Notes under the pieces: generated by a model
What the model saw: only the letters and a program-made list of their open reading frames with translations
What the model was told of the DNA's origin: nothing
Databases searched by the model: none
Assembly (NCBI GenBank): GCA_002731275.1
Contig: PCBK01000030.1
Coordinates: forward strand, 98,609-162,608
Source: Deltaproteobacteria bacterium
Lineage (GTDB): Bacteria; Myxococcota_C; UBA6777
Length of the DNA: 64,000 bases
Direction of reading: 5' to 3'
Shown here: in pieces, positions 10,249 through 22,748 of the stretch
How the letters are laid out: every line of letters begins with the position of its first letter
How positions within the stretch are numbered: the stretch's first letter is position 1
Program-made: the position numbers and the translations under genes

Positions 10249-13110
10249 ATGTATCATTTTTCAGAAACACAACGCACACGTGCTTACCGCATCGCCCTGC
10301 TTGTAGGGTGTTTCGGTCTCTTTTTGTTTGTCTCTTCTGCTCACGCATGGAACCCCCTCGTCGTCCGTGGACGCTGCCAACAGTCCGGCGTCCAGTGTAG
10401 TAGTACAGTCGGTAACGCCGGTGGCCAAGGCGCATGTTGCGATCCACAAAGTAGCACCATCGCGAGCTGTGAAAGTAACAACCGTTGCGCAGGTGGGAGC
10501 CCCTACAAATGGGCAGCCAATCAGATCCCACTGACGTGGTTCTTCAACCCCAACGGTATGGCTGGAAAATCTGGCTACGCAGGTTTGACTGAGGCCCAAC
10601 TTGAGGCAGACCTCAAACGCGCATTCGACGTGTGGACCAAACCTGTCTGTACCTCATTTCGCCACAGCTACCAGGGAAAAACCACAACGACACCCAGCTT
10701 TAACCGCCCTCTCGTGATGTTCCTCGCAACAGACGCACAATGGGCACAGCTCGGCGCACACAGCAGTACACTCGCCTTTACACGCCCCATCCCCAGCAAC
10801 AATGGCGCGCTCCAGGACGGTGACATCTACTTCAACCCACGCCCTGGTAACCGTGGTTGGGGAATCTCACCAAACGTCGCGAGAGGGAACATCGACTTTG
10901 CTGACGTCGCAGCACACGAGATGGGACACGCGATCGGCTTCGCACATACCAACAACAAAGTCTTGATGTACTACTCCATCCGCTGTACCGGGAACTGCTT
11001 TCGCAGCACTCTCTTCAAAGATGATCAAGACGCTGTGTGTACAACATACCCACGCACCGGCCCCTGCTCTTCAGACGCGGACTGTGGTGGATGTCTCAGA
11101 TGTAGCAGCGGAAAATGTGTTGCTAAAAACATCCCCCAAGCACGCAACCTCTGCAAACCCTGCACCCAACCCTCCGACTGTGGTGGCGCAAGTGACATCT
11201 GTGTCCGCCTCACAGAAGGTAACCGCTGCTCCATGGCCTGTGACAGCCAGGACTGCTGTCCTAACGGTTATCGCTGTACCCAGCTGACACTCAGCACCAA
11301 AGTCTGTATCCCAGAGGCCGGCGCGTGTGCGCCCGTCTCCTGTACAACAGACGCACAATGTGGTCCTGGAGAACAATGTGGCAGCAGCAAGACTTGTGAA
11401 CCCAAACCCGTCGCGGTCGCTGCAAACTCCTGTAAACTCTGCGCCAACAGCAGCGAGTGTGGGAGCGGAAACGCCTGTATCCAGGTCGACACAGTGACAC
11501 GCTGTGCGCAGCCTTGTGTCGCCGACAACTTCTGCCCCACAGGGTACTTCTGTAAGAGCACCTCTGCAGGACGACGTTGTGTCCCAGAGGACAACATCTG
11601 CCCATGTACACAGGACAGCCAATGTGACACTGGTCAAGTCTGCCGTAACAACAAGTGCCAAAAGCTCGGCGGTGGTAAATTTGGCGACACCTGTAGTGAC
11701 ACCACACCTTGTGCCGCAGGGTACAGCTGTGTCGACACAGGCCAATCCAAGATCTGTATCCAACCTTGTGGTCGCGCCAACACAGCAAACGGTGCGCCTG
11801 GTGGTCCTTGTCGTTCTGATGGCTCCTGTGATGGCGGTGCGCAGTGCTTCCGCGCTGGCGGTGGCACCATCTGTATGCCCCAATCCTGCCCAACAGGAAA
11901 CTGTGCATCCGCAGGTGGACAATGTTACCAAGTCGGAAACGGTGTAGGAAACAGATGCCTTTGCACAAGCGACGCACAGTGTGGCGCTGGGAAAGTCTGT
12001 AACACCTCTCTCTTGAAACAAGTCTTTGGACAAAACATCGGCGCTTGCGCCACACCATCCACACCCGCCAAGTGCGAAACTGGATACGACTGCGTTGACG
12101 CCACACAACAAGGCCAACCCGCATGTAATACCAGTCAGCCCGACGGATGCTTCTGCTTCCCAGGAAAAACACAAGGCCCCGGTGACCCCTGTGGACAAAA
12201 ACAATGTAAAGACGGAAACGTCTGTGTCCGCACCTCACAAACCTCCACCGACGGATACTGTCTGCGCACATGCCCCAGCGGCACATGCGACATCGGCGGC
12301 ATCTGCCAGGACGCCGGAAACGTCAAAGTATGTATCTGCGGAAGCTCGGCTCAATGTTCCAATGGCGGTACATGTAAAATCTTCACTGGTGTCAATTACG
12401 GTTCCTGTACCACAGGTGGCACCAACCCCTGTGGTGATGGCACTTGTAGCGCCAGCGAAAACTGCTCCACATGCCCCGCTGACTGCAAATGCCCCTCTGG
12501 ACAAAGCTGTCAAAGCGGGACCTGTAAAGGCGGAGACTGTGGCAACAATGCTTGTGAAGGAGCCAAAGGCGAAAACTGCTCCACATGTCCCGCTGACTGC
12601 GGCTGTGGTGCTGGGAAAAGCTGCCAAAATGGCGCCTGTGTCGAGCCCTCCGACTGTGGAAATAACGCTTGTGAAGGTGCCAAAGGCGAAAGCTGCTCCA
12701 CATGCCCCGCTGATTGTGGCTGTGGAACAGGAAAAAGTTGTCAAAATGGCGCCTGTGTCGAAGCCAAAGACTGTGGAAACAACGCCTGTGAAGGTGCCAA
12801 GGGCGAAAACTGCTCCACCTGCCCACAAGACTGTGCTTGTGGCTCCGGACAATCATGCGTCAATGAGACCTGTACCACCACCGTCAACAAAGAACCTACA
12901 GGAGACGCTGGAACAGGAACCACTGGCGAATGTAAAGATGATGAATACAAAGACTGTGACTCCGAAGGCAAAAACTGTGTCTGCGTCCAAGGGACACCTC
13001 CAGGGTGTGCTGGATGTAGTAGTGTCGACAGTCCATCAGCTTCCTTCCCCTACCTCCTCTTTGTCCTCTTCGGACTCCTCCTCGTCAACATCCGACGAAG
13101 ACGTGACTAA
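10249..13110 (+). CDS. Matrixin-type (M10-like) metalloprotease with cysteine-rich repeats and MYXO-CTERM-like tail
   Basis: 953 residues from an ATG with AGAAGGAG eight bases upstream. A signal peptide lies at about residues 15-35. The protease domain (about 80-265) has IPLTWFFNPNG, the zinc motif HEMGHAIGFAHT (HExGHxxGxxH) and a Met-turn candidate VLMYYS. About 600 residues of cysteine-rich repeats follow, with patterns such as C-x5-DCG and CxxGxxC, ending in three near-identical 39-residue units. The C-terminus (GCAGCSS, hydrophobic FPYLLFVLFGLLLVNI, RRRRD) matches the plan of MYXO-CTERM sorting tails. It should be exported and anchored at, or processed from, the cell surface. Prey or matrix proteolysis is inference. 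Confidence 0.9.
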   Translation: MYHFSETQRTRAYRIALLVGCFGLFLFVSSAHAWNPLVVRGRCQQSGVQCSSTVGNAGGQGACCDPQSSTIASCESNNRCAGGSPYKWAANQIPLTWFFNPNGMAGKSGYAGLTEAQLEADLKRAFDVWTKPVCTSFRHSYQGKTTTTPSFNRPLVMFLATDAQWAQLGAHSSTLAFTRPIPSNNGALQDGDIYFNPRPGNRGWGISPNVARGNIDFADVAAHEMGHAIGFAHTNNKVLMYYSIRCTGNCFRSTLFKDDQDAVCTTYPRTGPCSSDADCGGCLRCSSGKCVAKNIPQARNLCKPCTQPSDCGGASDICVRLTEGNRCSMACDSQDCCPNGYRCTQLTLSTKVCIPEAGACAPVSCTTDAQCGPGEQCGSSKTCEPKPVAVAANSCKLCANSSECGSGNACIQVDTVTRCAQPCVADNFCPTGYFCKSTSAGRRCVPEDNICPCTQDSQCDTGQVCRNNKCQKLGGGKFGDTCSDTTPCAAGYSCVDTGQSKICIQPCGRANTANGAPGGPCRSDGSCDGGAQCFRAGGGTICMPQSCPTGNCASAGGQCYQVGNGVGNRCLCTSDAQCGAGKVCNTSLLKQVFGQNIGACATPSTPAKCETGYDCVDATQQGQPACNTSQPDGCFCFPGKTQGPGDPCGQKQCKDGNVCVRTSQTSTDGYCLRTCPSGTCDIGGICQDAGNVKVCICGSSAQCSNGGTCKIFTGVNYGSCTTGGTNPCGDGTCSASENCSTCPADCKCPSGQSCQSGTCKGGDCGNNACEGAKGENCSTCPADCGCGAGKSCQNGACVEPSDCGNNACEGAKGESCSTCPADCGCGTGKSCQNGACVEAKDCGNNACEGAKGENCSTCPQDCACGSGQSCVNETCTTTVNKEPTGDAGTGTTGECKDDEYKDCDSEGKNCVCVQGTPPGCAGCSSVDSPSASFPYLLFVLFGLLLVNIRRRRD
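12535..12885 (+). repeat. Three tandem 117-base (39-residue) cysteine-rich repeats within the matrixin gene
   Basis: Units begin at 12535, 12652 and 12769, each with GAC-TGT coding DCGNNACEGAKGE, then CSTCP, DCxCG, SCxNxxC. Unit boundaries are 117 bases apart and in frame. The first two are almost identical in protein and the third diverges at its end. A shorter related unit precedes them from about 12429. The recent-looking duplication means the copy number could vary between strains. Confidence 0.9.
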
Positions 13111-13129
13111 GTGTTCCAAAATGGAACAC
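13111..13129. promoter_or_regulatory. Palindromic site 1 of 4 (putative enhancer-binding-protein site)
   Basis: GTGTTCCAAAATGGAACAC forms a perfect palindrome of eight-base arms around AAA. It starts directly after the TAA of the matrixin gene. Its centre lies about 298 bases upstream of the predicted sigma-54 transcription start near 13418. Confidence 0.75.
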
Positions 13130-13152
13130 CTCACATATACTTGATATAGTAT

Positions 13153-13171
13153 GTGTTCCAAAATGGAACAC
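13153..13171. promoter_or_regulatory. Palindromic site 2 of 4
   Basis: This site is an exact second copy of site 1, with GTGTTCCA arms around AAA. Its centre is 42 bases from site 1, about four helical turns, so the two sites face the same side of the DNA. Confidence 0.75.
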
Positions 13172-13218
13172 TATGACATCACTGTCTTGATTTCCCCTCC
13201 CCCCAAGAAGAATATACT

Positions 13219-13245
13219 GCAAGTGTTCCATTTTGGAACACTTGC
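13219..13245. promoter_or_regulatory. Palindromic site 3 of 4 (longest, 12-base arms)
   Basis: The core GTGTTCCA-TTT-TGGAACAC is extended by GCAA and TTGC on its flanks to perfect 12-base arms (GCAAGTGTTCCA) around TTT. It is the longest of the four and probably the strongest. The centre lies 70 bases from site 2. Confidence 0.78.
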
Positions 13246-13265
13246 TCCACTCTATTCTTGATCAA

Positions 13266-13284
13266 GTGATCCATTTTGGAACAC
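13266..13284. promoter_or_regulatory. Palindromic site 4 of 4 (one mismatch)
   Basis: GTGATCCA-TTT-TGGAACAC is the same motif with one arm mismatch (A at 13269). The centre lies 43 bases from site 3 and about 143 bases upstream of the predicted start of transcription, within the usual range for sigma-54 activator sites. Confidence 0.68.
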
Positions 13285-13391
13285 CTACACACAAAAATCG
13301 ATCTATTTTCATGAACATATGAACCTCCCTTATGCCCTTTCACCATATAAACACAAGATTAATATGAGTTTTTGCACCAAGTAAGATGTTT

Positions 13392-13407
13392 GGGCACATG
13401 ATATGCA
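13392..13407 (+). promoter_or_regulatory. Candidate sigma-54 (-24/-12) promoter
   Basis: GGGCACATGATATGCA fits the consensus TGGCAC-N5-TTGCA closely. The essential GG sits at 13393-13394 and GC at 13405-13406, exactly ten bases apart as sigma-54 requires. Transcription would begin near 13418 and give a leader of about 110 bases before the ATG at 13530. The downstream operon itself encodes a sigma-54 activator, and four palindromes lie upstream. The rest of the 13285-13529 stretch holds no other feature I can support. Confidence 0.72.
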
Positions 13408-13529
13408 TAAGGACTCTCCTACACAAACCTGTCTTAGGATGTAAAAGAGCACGGATTGTCAGAAGACATCCCAACAAGCAGGTCACAGTACCAGGGCATG
13501 TCCGGCCCAAGTCCTCCAAAGGAGCAATC

Positions 13530-14420
13530 ATGATAAAAGTTACTGTATGGGGTTCACGAGGCAGCATTCCAGTATCAGGCTCACAATTCCACCGACATGG
13601 TGGTTCGACGACGAGCATTGAAATTGAGCTTCTCGATAGCACAGAGCAAACCCCCTCACGCGTCTTAATCGACTGCGGAACAGGGCTCACAGAGCTTGGT
13701 AAAAACTGGGGAGATCGCGTCCCAGAGGCTCTGATGCTCCAAACACACATGCACTGGGATCACATACAAGGTTTCCCCTTCTTTGGCCCACTCTTCAACC
13801 CTGCTTCACAATTTGAATTGTACGCCGTCCCCAGAGATGGACAAACATTCAATGAAGTCCTGTCCCAACAAATGACCAAGCCGACGTTCCCCATCGGCAT
13901 CGACATCCTCCCTGCGACATTGGATTTCCACTCCCTCCCCCAAAATGGACAAATGCAAAAAGGCGAATTGACCTTGTCATGGGTCGAGTTGTGGCATCCT
14001 TCAGGGAGCACAGCCTTCCGTATTGACTACAAGGGCGCGAGCTTCGTATTTACAGGTGATGTCGAAGTCCAGCAAGGCTGTCGCTCCCAACTCATCGAAT
14101 TTGCAAAGGACGCAGATGTGATGATCATGGACGCCCAGTACTTCCCAGAAGAGTACGAAAGTCGCAAAGGCTTTGGACACTCCACCCCCGTCGACGCAGT
14201 CAGCGTCGCAAAAGAAGCCGGCATCAAACACCTCTACATGACCCACCACGATCCGTCTCACGATGACGAAAGACTCGATGAAAAGCTTCGTTTTGCGCAG
14301 TCGCTGAACAACGATGGTTTGCTGACTATCCATAACACCTACGACGGCTTACAGATCGATGTTCGCCCTAGCAATGCCCCTCGCGACGCTGACAACAGCT
14401 TGATCTCCGCCACTGCTTAA
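13530..14420 (+). CDS. MBL-fold metallo-hydrolase (cyclic-phosphodiesterase-like)
   Basis: 296 residues; the start at 13530 is supported by AAAGGAG six bases upstream and by the family-typical N-terminus MIKVTVWGSRGSIPVSG. The metallo-beta-lactamase motif H-x-H-x-D-H is THMHWDH at residues 72-78, with further ligands likely in ELWHPSGS, FTGDVE and the late TMTHHDPSHDD/MTHHD segment. The GSRGSIPV opening and the order of motifs resemble the PhnP/phosphoribosyl cyclic phosphodiesterase-like branch often linked to signalling domains. It is cytoplasmic. It is the first gene after the sigma-54 promoter and lies 68 bases before the sigma-54 activator gene, so it probably shares its operon. Cleaving a cyclic nucleotide sensed by the activator's GAF domain is a hypothesis. 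Confidence 0.85.
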   Translation: MIKVTVWGSRGSIPVSGSQFHRHGGSTTSIEIELLDSTEQTPSRVLIDCGTGLTELGKNWGDRVPEALMLQTHMHWDHIQGFPFFGPLFNPASQFELYAVPRDGQTFNEVLSQQMTKPTFPIGIDILPATLDFHSLPQNGQMQKGELTLSWVELWHPSGSTAFRIDYKGASFVFTGDVEVQQGCRSQLIEFAKDADVMIMDAQYFPEEYESRKGFGHSTPVDAVSVAKEAGIKHLYMTHHDPSHDDERLDEKLRFAQSLNNDGLLTIHNTYDGLQIDVRPSNAPRDADNSLISATA

Positions 14421-14488
14421 TCTATTCTCCTACCTGACAGTCTCAGCTCCCTCCGACCATCCAGGCTCATACCAAAGGTCACTTTACA

Positions 14489-16024
14489 ATGGATGAACCT
14501 ATTCTTTTGGACCTCGGTGAATGGGTCCGAAAAGAGATCAGCGCCGATCAGCTACTCGCACGCCTTGTTGACGTCGTCAAAGAATACCTTCAGGCAGATC
14601 GCGCCACCATCTACCTGATGGACGCCCCCAAAGATGAACTCGTCAGCGTCGCAGCCCACCTGCCAGAGCTAAAAGAGCTGCGCGTCCCCATCAGCCAAGG
14701 TGTCGCAGGATACGTCGCCCGTACACAGCGGATCGTGAACATCCCATACTGTGAAACGGACTCCCGCTTTTGGAGTGGCGTCGATGAGCGCACGGGCTAC
14801 ACAACCCGCTCCATGCTCGCGGCCCCTATTCCATCACCAGATCAACAGCTCATTGGGATCGTGCAGTGTCTCAATAAAAAAGACGGGGAGATCTTCACAG
14901 GTGAAGACGAAGACCTCCTCTCCAGCCTCGCCAAGCAGATCGGGGAAGTCATCCAAGAGACAACACTCGGTGATACTCCGGGCATTCAGCTAGATTCAGC
15001 TTACCAAGATCCAGAGACTCAAGATGACTGGCTACCTCTCGAAGATCGGATCAACCGAGTCATCGGCTTTGGACCGGCGATGAGAAATGTCTTCCAGAGC
15101 ATACGCCGTGTCGCATCGACAAAAGCTACGGTCCTGCTTCGAGGGGAGAGCGGAACTGGAAAGAGCTTGATCGCGCGTGCGCTACACTACAACTCCGCTG
15201 AGAGTCACGGCCCCTTCGTCCACCTCGACTGTACAACGCTCCCCGAAGGGCTTATGGAGAACGAACTCTTTGGACACGAGAGAGGTGCGTATACAGGCGC
15301 ACATGCCCGCAAGATAGGCAAAGTCGAAGCTGCCTCTGGTGGCACATTGTTCCTCGATGAGATCGGAGACCTCCCACTCCAACTACAGGGAAAATTACTG
15401 ACCCTGCTCCAAGAACGCACGTATCACAGAGTTGGCGGCACGAAACCCCTCAAAGCTGATATTCGCATCATCGCCGCGACCAACCGAGAGCTTGAACAAC
15501 TCGTAGAGCAAGAGCGTTTTCGCAAAGATCTGTACTACCGTTTGCAGGTCGTACAGATCGAGCTTCCCCCCCTACGTGTAAGAGGAAAATCCGATCTCAC
15601 AAGGCTCATCCATTATTTCCTACACAAAGCCGCCAAACACCACGGAAAACCGACCAGCACACTCACCCCACAAGCGCTCCAACGCCTCCTCGAATATCCC
15701 TGGCCTGGAAATGTCAGAGAGCTCGAAAACTGTTTAGAATCGGCAGTGATCTTTTCGGATGGTGAGATCGACCCACAACACTTACCCCTCGCGCAAAATC
15801 CGCCGCCACAACCACCTTCTCCGACAACAGAAGCGGCCGCTACCACCTCATCTCCTGCACAGATCTTTGCGCAGGAACCCACACTCAAAGAGCTTGAGGG
15901 ACAGTACATCGCGTTTTTGTTGCAGCAATACGATGGAAACCGCTCCACGTGCGCACGCATCCTCAACATCGGACGCAACACACTGGTACGAAAGATCAAA
16001 GAACATCAACTTGACGATCTTTGA
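14489..16024 (+). CDS. Sigma-54-dependent transcriptional activator, GAF-AAA+-Fis architecture
   Basis: 511 residues. An N-terminal GAF sensor domain covers about residues 15-155 ([40 protein letters not shown]). The AAA+ domain runs from about 190 to 425, with Walker A GESGTGKS at 219-226, the sigma-54-contacting GAYTGA loop at 266-271, Walker [14 protein letters not shown] and sensor [11 protein letters not shown] Fis-type helix-turn-helix follows at about 475-510 ([20 protein letters not shown]). This is the NorR/NifA-like plan: a small ligand binds GAF, and the AAA+ ring remodels sigma-54 holoenzyme. The gene ends 19 bases inside the convergent gene's 3' end, so there is no room for a terminator. 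Autoregulation through the upstream palindromes is inferred. Confidence 0.94.
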
Positions 16025-19000
16025 TCCACCCCTCTAAAGGACTTTCTTCTCGTCCAAAAGACAAAGAAGAGCCAACACAACACCCAAAACCATCCCGTCT
16101 CAACCCCTCCCCCTGTCGCCTGGCATCCACACCCTTTGCCCTTCTCCTCAGGCTCTCCCTCAACACCGACGATCACCTCGACAGGTGCGGAGTAAGCATA
16201 CCCATCGAAGACACGCAATTGAAAACGATACTGGCCCGGCTGCTTCGCCTGGAAGGTCACCTTCTGCGCCTCACTTTGGTCGATCACATCAGTCGGACCT
16301 GCGAGCTGCTTCCACTCATAAGAGAGCGTATCCCCGTCAGGATCTTCACTCAAACCTCCGTCAAGGACGACCATATCCCCGACAGAGATATCACCGAGTG
16401 GAGCGATACGTGCGATAGGCGTCCGGTTGATTCCCAACACCCTGATCGTCACAGTGTCCTCAATGGAGCGGCTCTTTCCGTCATCAACCTGCAAACCAAT
16501 GACGTACTTTTGGATCAACTTATCGCGTGTTGAAAACGAAGGTTTTTGCGGATTCGCGAGATTGAAATTCAGCACCGCGTTAGGTGGCTCGATCACCCGC
16601 CATGTATACGTCAGATTGTCTCCCTCATCGAGATCGACGCTCTTCGAACCATCCAGTGTCACGCTCTGCCCAACACGAACCTGCAGATCTTCGCCAGCGT
16701 GTGCACGGGGAACATGGTTGACCCCATCCTGATCGGCGACGATCGAGATCCGCGCAGGCATACTCCAGGCTTTTCCATCGTGGACTTCGAGAGAGAACGT
16801 GTAGATCCCATATGTCGGTGGAATAAAGGAAGCTGAGCTGTCTGTATCCAGTGGATGAAAGAGGACCACAGGAAATCCATCGACTTGGCGCCAACGATAT
16901 CGCAGCGCCTCCCCCTCAGGATCGTAACTTGTATGTCCCTTCAACTCTACAGCCTGACCGACATTCCAACTCGTCTGAGAGCTCGTGTCGATCTTCGCAA
17001 TCGGAGGTTGATTACCATCCACATTCCCTCGAACGAGTACATCGAGTGGTGCGGACTTTCCACCGGCGCTCTCCACCTCCAGACGAAATGTCAGATCACA
17101 AGAGTGCAACGAAAAGAACGATGGGCGCGCAGTTTTCGCATCCAGCAAGGTCACATCCCGCCCTTCGAGTTGCTGCCAAGAGAAAGACAACTGCCCCCCA
17201 CCAAAGTCGATGCTTTTGGAGGCATCAAGTGTCACAACCTGACCAAAATTTCCATGTAATGGACTGGCATTTGCGAGTGGTAGGAAATGCTCCTCACCAT
17301 CTTCGGAGATCGAGATCCCCACGACAGTCTGCAAAGAAGAGAGTTCTCCAGAGGTCACACGCAGACCAATGCGATAATACCCCGGACTTTCAGCGCGAAA
17401 GGTCACCTTTGGCTGCGCATCACCAGACAAAGAGGCGCCCTCTTTTGGACGCGTGTCTCCTGTTCGCTCCGGCAAAATAGTCCATTTGTAATTGACAGGA
17501 AGACCATCGAGCTGCCGACTTCGAGAACCATCGAGTACAATCGCTTCCTTCACCTTTGCGGCCTGCGGTGCGACAATGACGGCATGTGGTACGTAGGAGC
17601 TTGATGGATCGTGAATGGCGATCGAGAGTTCGCGACTCTGGCTCCCTCCTGCCTTGTCCCTCACCAACAACCGAAAATGATACACGCCCACAACAGCAGG
17701 CGTAAAATAGGCCCGCTCACTCTCAGCTTCTTGAAGTTCAACTTTGAGCTGACTCTCTGTGTTGAGCTGTGTCCATTTGAACGACAGCACATCACCATTT
17801 GCGTCGGAGCTTCCGCGTGCGTCGAGCGCGATCTTTTGGCCAACCTTACTCGCACGTGGTGCCCAAGCGTTGACACATGGAGGAACATTGTTGACGTTCA
17901 CACGCAAAAACGCAGGGACCCCTTTTCTCTCTCCACTGCTGACAGCGAGGCGAAAAACGTATACACCGGCCTTTCGCAACAGCGTCTTTGTCTTACACAA
18001 CGAAGGTTCCTGGATCTTCACTGTCTCAGCGTCGTCAGGTGCGCGCTCTAGGCTCCATTGGCAACTTACCGTCCCCCCTTTGGGATCAGAGCTACTACTT
18101 CCGTCAAGTATGACTTCTCCTGGCGCGGTCTGAAGATCTTTTCCAGCGACCGCGATCGGCTCTCCTTGGTTCTGTTGGACAGTCACAAAAAAAGACAGGC
18201 GCTCACTCGCACCTTGTCCATCAAAAACTTCCAGAATCACGAGTTGACGTCCGACATCTTCGGTTTTTGGCAGCCATTGAAGAGAGGCAAACCCCACGCT
18301 CTTTCCAGCCTTATTGGCGGTATTTGTGGCGTTGAGTGTCATCCCTGCAGGAGACTCGATCAGACGAAATCCCAGAACATCACCTGTATCGACGTCTTCT
18401 GCGCGCAATGACACACAGGAGAACTCGATCCCGACTTGCGCTTGAAGACACGGAGTTGAGACAAAGCGAGGCGCGTCGTTACGCCCCCTCACCTTGAGTA
18501 GAAACGTTTGTGTGACGGAGGCTCCGCGACCATCATCGACGAGCAGCTCGACGCGATGTCCTGTCGTGCTGAGATCTTCCTGGCGAGGTGTCCACAACAA
18601 CAACGCCCTCTCACGATCCAGACTGACGAGCTGCATCCCTGCAGGTCCACTCACAAAACGAAAATGCAGCATATCCCCGTTGGGGTCCGACGCTTTGAGT
18701 AGATATCTGTACTCACTTCGCTCTTCGGCGAATGTCACAGGCTGGCTCTCAAAAGAAGGCGGCTCATTGTCCTCAGTCACAGTCAAAATAAATGTCTGCA
18801 CCGCAAACAGACCGCCACGATCGGAGACACGAATGCGCACGAGGTGTTCACCTCTTTGGAGAGGAAGTGGAGACCATGTAAAGAGTCCGGACTGGGCATC
18901 CATTGCCATCCCCGTGAGGGGTTGTTCAAGACGAAAAGACAGCGGCTCTTGCTCAGGATCAGACGCCACAACCTGATACGTGTAACTTTGCCCCTGCTTT

Positions 19001-22000
19001 ACAAACAAAGAGGGACGCGAAGTAATCGTAGGTGCTTGGTTTGGGGTCGTCACATTGACCTGGAAGGTCGCAGACAACGTCCCACCTTTACCATCACAGA
19101 CTTCGACCTCAACGGAGAAGAGACCACTTTGCGCCGCCGAAGGACGCCACCACAACACGCCATCTGTGGTCAAAACCATCCCCTTTGGACCCTTGCGCAA
19201 AAAGTAAGTGAGCACATCCTTATCCGGATCGATGGCTGCGATCAGTTGCTGTAATGTCGCCCCCTGTTGCAACGTCAATACTCCGGAAGGAACGGACTTC
19301 CACGTCGGAAGCTGGTTGGTAGCGTGCACATAGACGACAAATGATTGTAGTTGTCTGCCTCCTCGCTTGTCTTTGACCTCAAGGGTAAAGAGTACGTACT
19401 TTCCGGCGTGTTCACTGCCAGGCGTCCACTGGAGCGTCGCACGTGTGCTGTCCAAAAGAGGCTGATGAGCAGGCAATTGCGCACTTGGAGCCTCCAACAA
19501 TGACACACTTAAGGTCTTGGGAGCGTCATCAATATCGCCAAGCAAGAAGGCGTATGTGAGGGTCTTTCCGACGGTCGCTCCAGTAGGAGGTGCTGAGAGA
19601 AACTGTGGTGATTGATTGATATCATTGACCTGTAGCTGAAAATCCTGCACGAGCGTCGCACCAGCCTGATCGTAGACGAGAATCCGCACATCATGTGTCC
19701 CAACATCCTGCTTTCCAGGAAGCCAGGACAGGAGACCACTTAATGTGCCGATCGTCAGACCTTTTGGACCCTCAAGCAAGAGGTAACGATGAACATCATC
19801 GTTGTCTACGTCGTTGATCGACAGACGAGAACGATAGGGAGTTCCCTCGGTCACTTGTGTCGCAGGTAGCTGCGCGAGTGTTGGGGGGGTGTTTTTCTTA
19901 CTCACATACACAAAGAAGTGCTGAAGTTGGCTCTCGCCGTGGGGTACATCCACCACTTTGAGCAAGACCTCGTGGACGCCTTCGTTGGTCGTAGCGTCGA
20001 GCCTTTTAGGTGTCCAACGCAACATCCCACTCGTCGCATCGAGTGTCATCCCCTTCGGCCCAATGAGCAAAGAATATTGGACTCCATCCTTCGTGGGGTC
20101 CGGGTCAATCGCGCGAAGTTGGTATGAATACGGTGTGTTCTCTGTGAGCAAGACACGAGGCTCAGAGTGGAATTGAGGCGGTTGATTGACATTGACGACT
20201 TCGATCGTCCAGTGATGGATCAACAAGCCCCCCTTCTGATCGTCCACACGAATCGTCACGTCATGACGTCCAACATCACTGTTATGTGGTGTCCAAGAGA
20301 GCAGCCCACTCTCGGAGACAGAGAGTCCATCTGGGCCTCTCTCCATCGCGTACTGAAGGACATCACCGTCAGGATCTGTCGCTTTTAACTGGTACGAAAG
20401 ACTCTGCTCTTCGGTCGCTTTTACAGGTGGGGCTTCTTCGAGAGTTGGGGGTTCATTGGCCTTGTATACCTGCAACTTATACGTATGAAGCGTCTCACCT
20501 CCGAGCGCATCAAACACTCGGACCTTCACCTCAAACCACGAACTCGCCTGGATCTCAGACGGCTGAGGCGTCCACGAAATCAAGCCCTTTTGGCTGATGG
20601 TCATCGTCTGTGGACCCCCTTCGAGCGCAAAGGAGAGTTGATCCCCGATATCAGGGTCTTTGGCGACCACTTGGTAGTAGTACTTCTTTCCAAGTATCGC
20701 GCCTTTTAAGGGGATAGAAGTGACCACGGGTTTGCTGTTGACGTTTTGCACCTGCAACGAAAAGCTCTGCTGCTCGCGTGCACCGTATTCATCGACAACT
20801 TCGATCATGACACTGTGCCCCCCCACGTCGTCGTTTGTCGGGAGCCAAGTCACTTCACCTGTATAGGCGATCTTCATCGAGTGAGGACCTTGTACCAAAC
20901 GGTAGAATAACTTCGCGTTTGCTCCATCGGGGTCTTCAGCTTTCACTTGATAACGAAACATCACCCCCTCAGAGGCCGTAGTAGGAGGAAGTGAGGTGAT
21001 CGCTGGCGTGTCATTCCGGTCCTGGACATGCAACACAAACGATTGAACGCTCTGACCGCCTCTTGTATCGCGTGCGACGATATGGACTTGATGGTCCCCA
21101 ACGTCGGCCTGACGGGTAGGACGCCAACGAATAGAGCCTGTAAGCGGATCGATAGACATGCCAGCAGGCGCGACATTGAGCGAAAATGTCAGGCGCTCTC
21201 CCTCAGGCTCATAGACATGTGGCTGGTAAAAGAATGTTTGGTGTTGTGATGTGCGCACAGGTGGTTGGGAGTGCCATTGTGGAGGGTCATTCACATCCTC
21301 GATGTAGATGGAAAAAGTGCGGGAGAGAACCCCACCCCTTTTGTCATCAAGTCCGATCGTGAAGCTCTGCGCACCTGTCTGCAACGCAGATGGTGTCCAT
21401 GTGAGCGTTGCGACCTGCTTACCTGTTTTTTGGAGGACCATCCCCTCAGGAGCACCCAACAGGACAAAAGCAAGATCGTCACCATCAGCGTCGAGAGCCT
21501 GCACAGGGAGCGACAGTGATGTGCCCTGTTTGTGCGAAGCTGGGACCTTCAAAGACAACGATGGAGAAGCATTAAGAGGTGCTTTCGCGACGACCTGTAC
21601 ACTCCACGTCTGGGTCTTCTCAAGGCCTGTGTCGTCCTTCACTACGAGCGTAATGGTGACATTTCCACTTGCCGAAGGTGTCCATCGCAGATGTCCCGTC
21701 GTGGGATCGAGTTTGAGATCTTTGGGGCCTGCTTTGATCGAAAATGTATGACTCGCGCCGCGATCTTCATCTGTCACCCATAACCTGTATATGTAGGGTC
21801 GCCCAACCGCAGCAAATGGCGAGGGCGTCGACATGATCTTAGGAGGCGAGGGAGTGTCTTTGACCTGAATCTGGTAGGGCTGGACGACAAATTGCCCAAA
21901 CTCATCGCGGACTTCAACGACCACCTGTTGCGTCCCAACGTCGCTCGCGGTAGGCGTCCAATGGATCACGCCATCTGCCCCAACAGTCATACCTTTAGGG

Positions 22001-22530
22001 GCTTCGATCAGCCGGTAGAACAATAACGCTGGCATTTGTGAGGCGTCAGGGTCTGTGGCCTGGAGTGTGTATGTGTATGCGAGACCTTCGGTGGCTTGTG
22101 TGATCGGGGTCGAGACAATCGTTGGCGCAAGAGGCGCTGCGAAGACATTATAATGACAGGTCTTTTTATCCTTGCTACCGGCACGATCAGAGACCTCAAT
22201 GTCAAACTGATATGAAAAATTATGGGGCGCTCGCTTGGGCCACCAGAGCAACATCGCTCGCCACGTGCAACAACCACGCTTGCCAATGGGGACAATGCGG
22301 ATCTGTTGCCCTCCAGGCGCGTTGAGGAGTTGAAATTTGAGTGACTCATCAACCCCATCTGGATCATACGCCTCTATCAGTTGTCGATAGACCTTCCCCT
22401 CAACGAGCGTTTCGGGCTGCGAGAGAGGTTGAAAGAGGAGGACTGGAGGCTGGTTCTTCGTGGGCTCTCCCCATGCACTCCCCCCACACAAAACGAGATA
22501 CCATGCAAAAACGGCAAAAAACCTTCTCAT
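16006..22530 (-). CDS. Giant cadherin-like repeat surface protein with PKD-like repeats and MYXO-CTERM-like tail
   Basis: About 2174 residues from the ATG at 22530, which starts a good signal peptide ([21 protein letters not shown]); another in-frame ATG lies 15 codons upstream. About fifteen putative-Ig/cadherin-like (He_PIG) repeats of roughly 90-100 residues follow, each with a DPDGD-like calcium motif and a GxLxWTPxxxDVG signature. About seven PKD/K319L-like repeats come next (AGxDLQ, LDGSxSxD, YxWxQ). The C-terminus has GCGCQATGG, a hydrophobic stretch [13 protein letters not shown] and a basic cluster. The protein should be an extracellular calcium-stabilised rod, perhaps adhesive. It converges on and overlaps the sigma-54 activator gene by 19 bases. 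Confidence 0.9.
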
Positions 22531-22748
22531 GCTCAAACCTGGTTGCAAACAACAATACAATTCTCTCCGCATCACACGGAGAATGTTTCAAAATGAATAC
22601 ATTTTCAGCATACTTGCGTACACTCTATATCCTATCGACTCTATCCCCAAACGACAACCCCCTACACACATATGAACGGACAACACCTCGCTCTTTCTTT
22701 ACATTCACCTTCTCGACGTTGGGGGAAAGCAGCCTCCTCAACGGCAAC

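Follow-up and report, generated by a model that had tools for sequence, protein, structure and literature searches.

In the DNA analysed here, a stretch of 64,000 nucleotides that we call the window, we found an operon of two genes which very probably forms an autoregulated one-component sigma-54 circuit. That is, the sigma-54 activator encoded by the second gene would bind a set of palindromes upstream of the operon and drive transcription of the operon itself, and its regulon would be essentially the operon alone. The first gene encodes an MBL-fold hydrolase. The features of the locus, in window positions, are as follows.

13111 to 13129, no strand: operator 1, GTGTTCCAAAATGGAACAC, 0 mismatches; centre 13120, 274 bp upstream of the -24 GG
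13153 to 13171, no strand: operator 2, GTGTTCCAAAATGGAACAC, 0 mismatches; centre 13162, 232 bp upstream of the -24 GG
13223 to 13241, no strand: operator 3, GTGTTCCATTTTGGAACAC, 0 mismatches; centre 13232, 162 bp upstream of the -24 GG
13266 to 13284, no strand: operator 4, GTGATCCATTTTGGAACAC, 1 mismatch (GTGATCCA); centre 13275, 119 bp upstream of the -24 GG
13392 to 13407, + strand: -24/-12 sigma-54 promoter element, GGGCACATGATATGCA (GGGCAC-N5-ATGCA); predicted start about 13418
13418 to 13529, + strand: predicted 5' leader, with AAAGGAG ahead of the ATG
13530 to 14420, + strand: gene of the MBL-fold hydrolase, 296 aa; Pfam Lactamase_B_2; metal motif THMHWDH (T72-H78) intact
14489 to 16024, + strand: gene of the GAF-sigma-54 AAA+-Fis HTH activator, 511 aa; GAF about residues 20-153, AAA+ 192-358, HTH_8 465-505
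15881 to 16003, + strand: Fis-type HTH, residues 465-505, with an NtrC-like recognition helix

Operators and promoter

The palindrome GTGTTCCA-N3-TGGAACAC occurs four times at 13111-13284, three times perfectly and once with a single mismatch. The four copies and their centres are thus as the initial annotation gave them. Its statement that they lie 140-300 bases upstream of the promoter needs correction, the true distances from the -24 GG being those listed above. The centres are spaced by 42, 70 and 43 bp, and all four sites lie upstream of the -24 element.

When up to three mismatches were allowed, the window contained four matches against 0.46 expected, and none of 100 shuffles reached four. 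A pattern search of the 10.75-Mb assembly found no matches with one mismatch or fewer other than these four. The next best were four places with two mismatches, and all of them lie within long open frames, for which reason we rejected them as evidence of a wider regulon. These results indicate that the operator is private to this operon. The genome-wide total at up to three mismatches was 45, below the 64 of the reversed-pattern control, and therefore the palindrome is not a dispersed repeat. A dispersed repeat unrelated to promoters had been named in the initial annotation as one of the cases that would speak against its reading. That case is excluded by these counts, and it is also answered by the operator-like sites and the promoter that are conserved before the same operon across Myxococcota.

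Other candidates for a wider regulon were rejected as well. Five other exact matches to TCCA-N3-TGGAACA were found in the genome, where about five are expected by chance by our estimate; only one of them has a promoter-like match near it, and that match falls within an open frame, on the upstream side of the site. A site shared by five Myxococcaceae genomes was read in three loci, and in each of these it lies within an open frame that, from its translation, we take to be ClpX. No plasmid match to 13000-16030 was obtained, so a plasmid origin was set aside.

The gene upstream of the operators is on the same strand as the operon, and operator 1 begins directly behind its stop codon. The palindromes therefore stand in front of this operon only. 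This gene (10249-13110) encodes a protein of 953 aa that combines a matrixin (Peptidase_M10) domain with Cys-rich repeats and whose tail is MYXO-CTERM-like, consisting of a Cys motif, a hydrophobic stretch and an Arg cluster. On the other side of the operon, 16006-22575 (- strand) encodes a 2189-aa protein with many Ig/cadherin/PKD repeats and a similar Cys-hydrophobic-Arg anchor at its end.

The promoter element has GG at 13393-94 and GC at 13405-06 with the correct spacing, just as had been proposed for GGGCAC-N5-ATGCA at this place. Promoters were scored against first-order shuffles in the 150 bp that precede the MBL start codon, with p <= 0.02 taken as significant; the weight matrix was built on approximate literature frequencies rather than fitted here. 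The element of the window gave a shuffle p of about 0.004. It carries G in place of the T of the consensus TGGCAC, and this counts against the sigma-54 reading. One rpoN was detected in the genome. A consensus scan of 13000-14520 found no sigma-70-like promoter on the + strand; basal expression would need to come through leakage, read-through or another promoter type. There was no convincing IHF site between the operators and the promoter.

Conservation of the operon and its control region

Five genomes represent the GTDB phylum of the window (G000, the window's own, and G001-G004), and the MBL gene is present in all five. In G000-G003 the activator gene adjoins the MBL gene, and only in G004 are they found on separate contigs, both near contig ends. 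Sites related to the operators lie upstream of the MBL genes of the same-phylum relatives (CTGCTCCAGAATGGAACAC, CTGATCCACAATGGAACAC, GTGTTCCAAAACGGATCGT, GTGATCCAAAATAGACCAC), and closer to the gene stands TGGCCC-N5-TTGC, CGGCAT-N5-TTGC or TGGTCT-N5-TTGC. The genes farther upstream vary between relatives, which indicates that the sites travel with this operon.

In Myxococcota (the myxobacterial lineage, phylum of G032), an MBL orthologue with E <= 1e-70 was found in 91 of 195 genomes. The activator gene is directly behind the MBL gene in nearly all of the 42 loci, which were mostly one per genus. Of the 41 operon loci scored, 37 have a significant -24/-12 element; without three duplicate records the figure is 34 of 38. 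For control we used MBL homologues with no accompanying activator, the majority of them from other phyla. Here such an element was found in only 4 of 81 upstream regions (median p 0.51), and a promoter score of 12 or more in none of the 81. Thus the promoter element, with its GG at -24 and GC at -12, is conserved at orthologous loci.

The core TCCA-N3-TGG was found 13 times in 33 Myxococcota upstream regions against 0.64 expected, the maximum over 500 shuffle sets being four, and four times in three same-family upstream regions against 0.05 expected. Core sites of Myxococcaceae recur at -58 and -92 from the -24 GG. About half of the Myxococcota upstream regions lack the strict core, so that the operator is degenerate or different there. 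In L063 (of G032) and in the Myxococcus loci L101 and L107, a gene that begins a short way upstream of the operator sites is directed away from the operon; judged by eye from its translation, it presumably encodes a ParA/MinD-like ATPase.

The activator and its recognition of the operators

The initial annotation described an MBL protein followed by a GAF-AAA+-Fis activator with a GAYTGA loop, and both genes are indeed present, the second starting 68 bp behind the stop codon of the first. The Pfam domains of the activator are GAF, Sigma54_activat, AAA lid and HTH_8. As in a bEBP, it contains an AAA+ sigma-54 interaction domain (PF00158, E 4.3e-68), a Fis-type DNA-binding domain (PF02954, E 2.7e-9) and the GAFTGA loop, which is GAYTGA here and GAFTGA or GAYTGA in the orthologues. 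It is not an NtrC equivalog (330 bits against the ntrC cut-off of 558.6), a GAF domain taking the place of the receiver, nor a NifA equivalog (368 bits against 528.85). PADLOC matched it to RtcR models alone, through the common AAA+/HTH part, and a defence role was rejected.

The recognition helix of the activator, GRNTLVRK, has the NtrC-type residues (GRNTLxRK). GRNTL occurs in one of the 22 Fis-type HTH matches found in the genome, namely that of the operon's activator, and this NtrC-type helix is absent from the other 21. The other same-family EBP loci that we examined also have no GRNTL. Set against the wild-type NtrC helix, GRNTLTRK, the R, N and R are changed to Ala in the solved NtrC domain 1ntc; all three are present in the activator. 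They are also retained in the orthologues with a readable helix, except for one with GRSTL.

We therefore think of the following mechanism. Activator dimers would bind the palindromes through the NtrC-type helix, whose residues would contact the CCA-N3-TGG core just as their counterparts do in NtrC. Once bound, the dimers would assemble, form a DNA loop and act on sigma-54 polymerase at 13392-13407 to remodel it. In this way the operon would drive itself and, given the right GAF signal, reinforce its own expression. Its regulon in this genome would be essentially the operon alone. The proposal of the initial annotation that the regulator drives its own operon is strongly supported at the level of sequence by the conserved sites and promoter, the uniqueness of the operator and the helix that matches the operator core.

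Could it be that some other activator, either a genuine NtrC or a further EBP of the Fis type, occupies the operators, and that the GAF protein acts elsewhere? The operator core is that of the NtrC box (PMC8743547), and cross-regulation among EBPs is reported in myxobacteria for Nla28 (PMC9765219). The assembly is 94.65% complete, so that an NtrC may have gone unseen. Against this, GRNTL is confined to the operon's activator as described above, the genome contains no perfect NtrC boxes, and the sites precede this very operon across genera. We consider this explanation unlikely. It is even less likely, and in our view improbable, that a repressor or local regulator outside the EBP class uses the palindromes, near a sigma-54 promoter, as its operators. 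Perfect two-fold symmetry is usual in many repressor families, and a far-upstream position does not prove an enhancer; but all the sites are upstream of the -24 element at positions typical for enhancers, sigma-54 promoters require an EBP, and the core matches the HTH which the operon itself encodes.

The palindromes may also be considered as RNA hairpins, for example terminators for the upstream gene or stabilisers of an mRNA end. Site 1 is directly behind the stop codon of that gene, folding of the repeats is strong (z -5.9 and -5.2), and there is one terminator-like match on the - strand (1.3 expected). The + strand, however, has no T-run, the locus has no Rfam match, and the sites of relatives stand behind unrelated genes and are often imperfect, retaining the CCA/TGG core over full pairing. 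The chance of this reading seems to us very slight. In operator 3 the perfect arms are longer (13219-13245, GCAAGTGTTCCA...TGGAACACTTGC), with a T-containing tail on the - strand; its terminator-like match is at chance frequency. Binding of the palindromes by the operon's own activator is thus the reading that we prefer.

Possible ligand, and comparison with known systems

The activator probably senses a small nucleotide, as judged from its GAF domain. The best solved sequence relatives of this domain are CyaB2, PmGH and PDE2A, and the folds nearest to its model (mean pLDDT 84.6) are PmGH, PDE10A, PDE2A, CyaB2, PDE6, PDE5 and Lcd1-cAMP. The NKxnFx3DE motif is complete in the window protein (N129-K130-x5-F136-x3-D140-E141) and kept just partly in orthologues, among which the lysine and glutamate vary; D99-x2-T102-G-Y-x-T106 is invariant in 20 orthologues. 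F and D residues that contact cGMP in PDE2A are not retained.

The MBL enzyme probably cuts a small nucleotide. H73, H75, D77, H78, H156, D177, H217 and H240 are invariant in 29 aligned orthologues. The structure model (mean pLDDT 89.6) matches the folds of RNase Z (best) and YhfI, to which the identity is about 20%. Residues 72-78, THMHWDH, fit [T/S]HXHXDH, a motif known from the atypical class-II PDEs (PMC9293780), and YhfI prefers cAMP/cGMP (PMC9117128). The scores against NCBIfam families were far below the cut-offs, both for the cyclic-nucleotide PDE family NF041851 (61.7 bits, cut-off 400) and for RNase Z (63.8 bits, cut-off 292.95). PADLOC gave no defence match for the MBL protein.

We picture the PDE-type GAF as gating the ATPase in response to a small ligand, which would most likely be a cyclic nucleotide. 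The phosphodiesterase-like MBL hydrolase would lower this ligand or a related nucleotide, giving feedback. Such feedback is plausible because the GAF domain resembles those of cyclic-nucleotide PDEs and CyaB2 and the MBL protein resembles YhfI-type phosphodiesterases and RNase Z. A cyclic-nucleotide loop is our best guess for the signal, at slightly less than an even chance. The initial annotation suggested that the MBL enzyme could make or remove the GAF ligand. This idea agrees with these resemblances and with the class III cyclase genes of the genome, of which there are at least five, and is likewise plausible. An alternative to the feedback step only, which we hold to be equally probable, is that the circuit is real and the MBL protein has nothing to do with the GAF ligand, being a nuclease or a phosphoesterase of another kind, so that a metabolic loop would be absent. 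The best fold match is RNase Z, both family scores are weak, and GAF ligands are diverse. On the other side stand the constant pairing of the two genes across genera, the PDE type of the GAF domain, YhfI among the nearest solved folds, and the several cyclase genes. For the system as a whole we tentatively propose, with less confidence than the feedback alone, a deeply conserved, self-contained myxobacterial homeostat for a second messenger. Its GAF activator, of NtrC-like DNA specificity, would respond to a cyclic nucleotide and use a private operator to control itself as well as a signal-destroying MBL phosphodiesterase.

If the feedback is true, cyclic-nucleotide levels would be tied directly to sigma-54 transcription by a compact two-gene loop. 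Myxococcota have many sigma-54 activators. The present analysis offers a predicted ligand class, operator, promoter and targets for one such uncharacterised activator, which occurs in many genera of the phylum, Myxococcus species among them. For Myxococcus xanthus, sigma-54 has been reported as essential (PMC12316311). A search of mostly open-access literature found no description of the MBL-activator operon. What appears to be new is the identity of the conserved operon together with its predicted operator and promoter, and also that a GAF protein, a one-component sensor, would reuse operator recognition of the NtrC kind.

The NtrC box consensus is TGCACCA-N3-TGGTGCA (PMC8743547). The present system shares with NtrC the CCA-N3-TGG core, the identical spacing, the helix R/N/R in GRNTLxRKxK, sigma-54 activation by an AAA+ domain and several upstream sites. 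It differs in the outer arms of the operator (GTGTT/AACAC instead of TGCA/TGCA), in a GAF sensor instead of a phosphorylated receiver, and in a regulon that seems to be its own operon only. Autoregulation and small regulons have been described before for one-component EBPs. Examples that control a neighbouring operon or their own are DVU2827 and DVU2894 of Desulfovibrio, where most EBP regulons comprise one to four operons (PMC4641369). The comparative footprint of an EBP site and a sigma-54 promoter at the EBP's own locus is alike, whereas the operator and the enzyme partner differ. The MBL protein resembles YhfI, Rv1339, CpdA (PMC9293780) and Apyc1 (PMC9117128) in the RNase Z-like MBL branch, the [T/S]HXHXDH motif and size; it departs from atypical class-II PDEs in its low identity to YhfI and its PDE family score far under the curated cut-off. 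CyaB2, PDE2A, PDE10A and Lcd1 are among the closest solved sequence or fold relatives of the GAF domain, which has NKxnFx3DE and D-x2-TGY-x-T. Unlike them, it is joined to a sigma-54 AAA+ domain, some of its ligand-contact positions differ, and its ligand binding is predicted.
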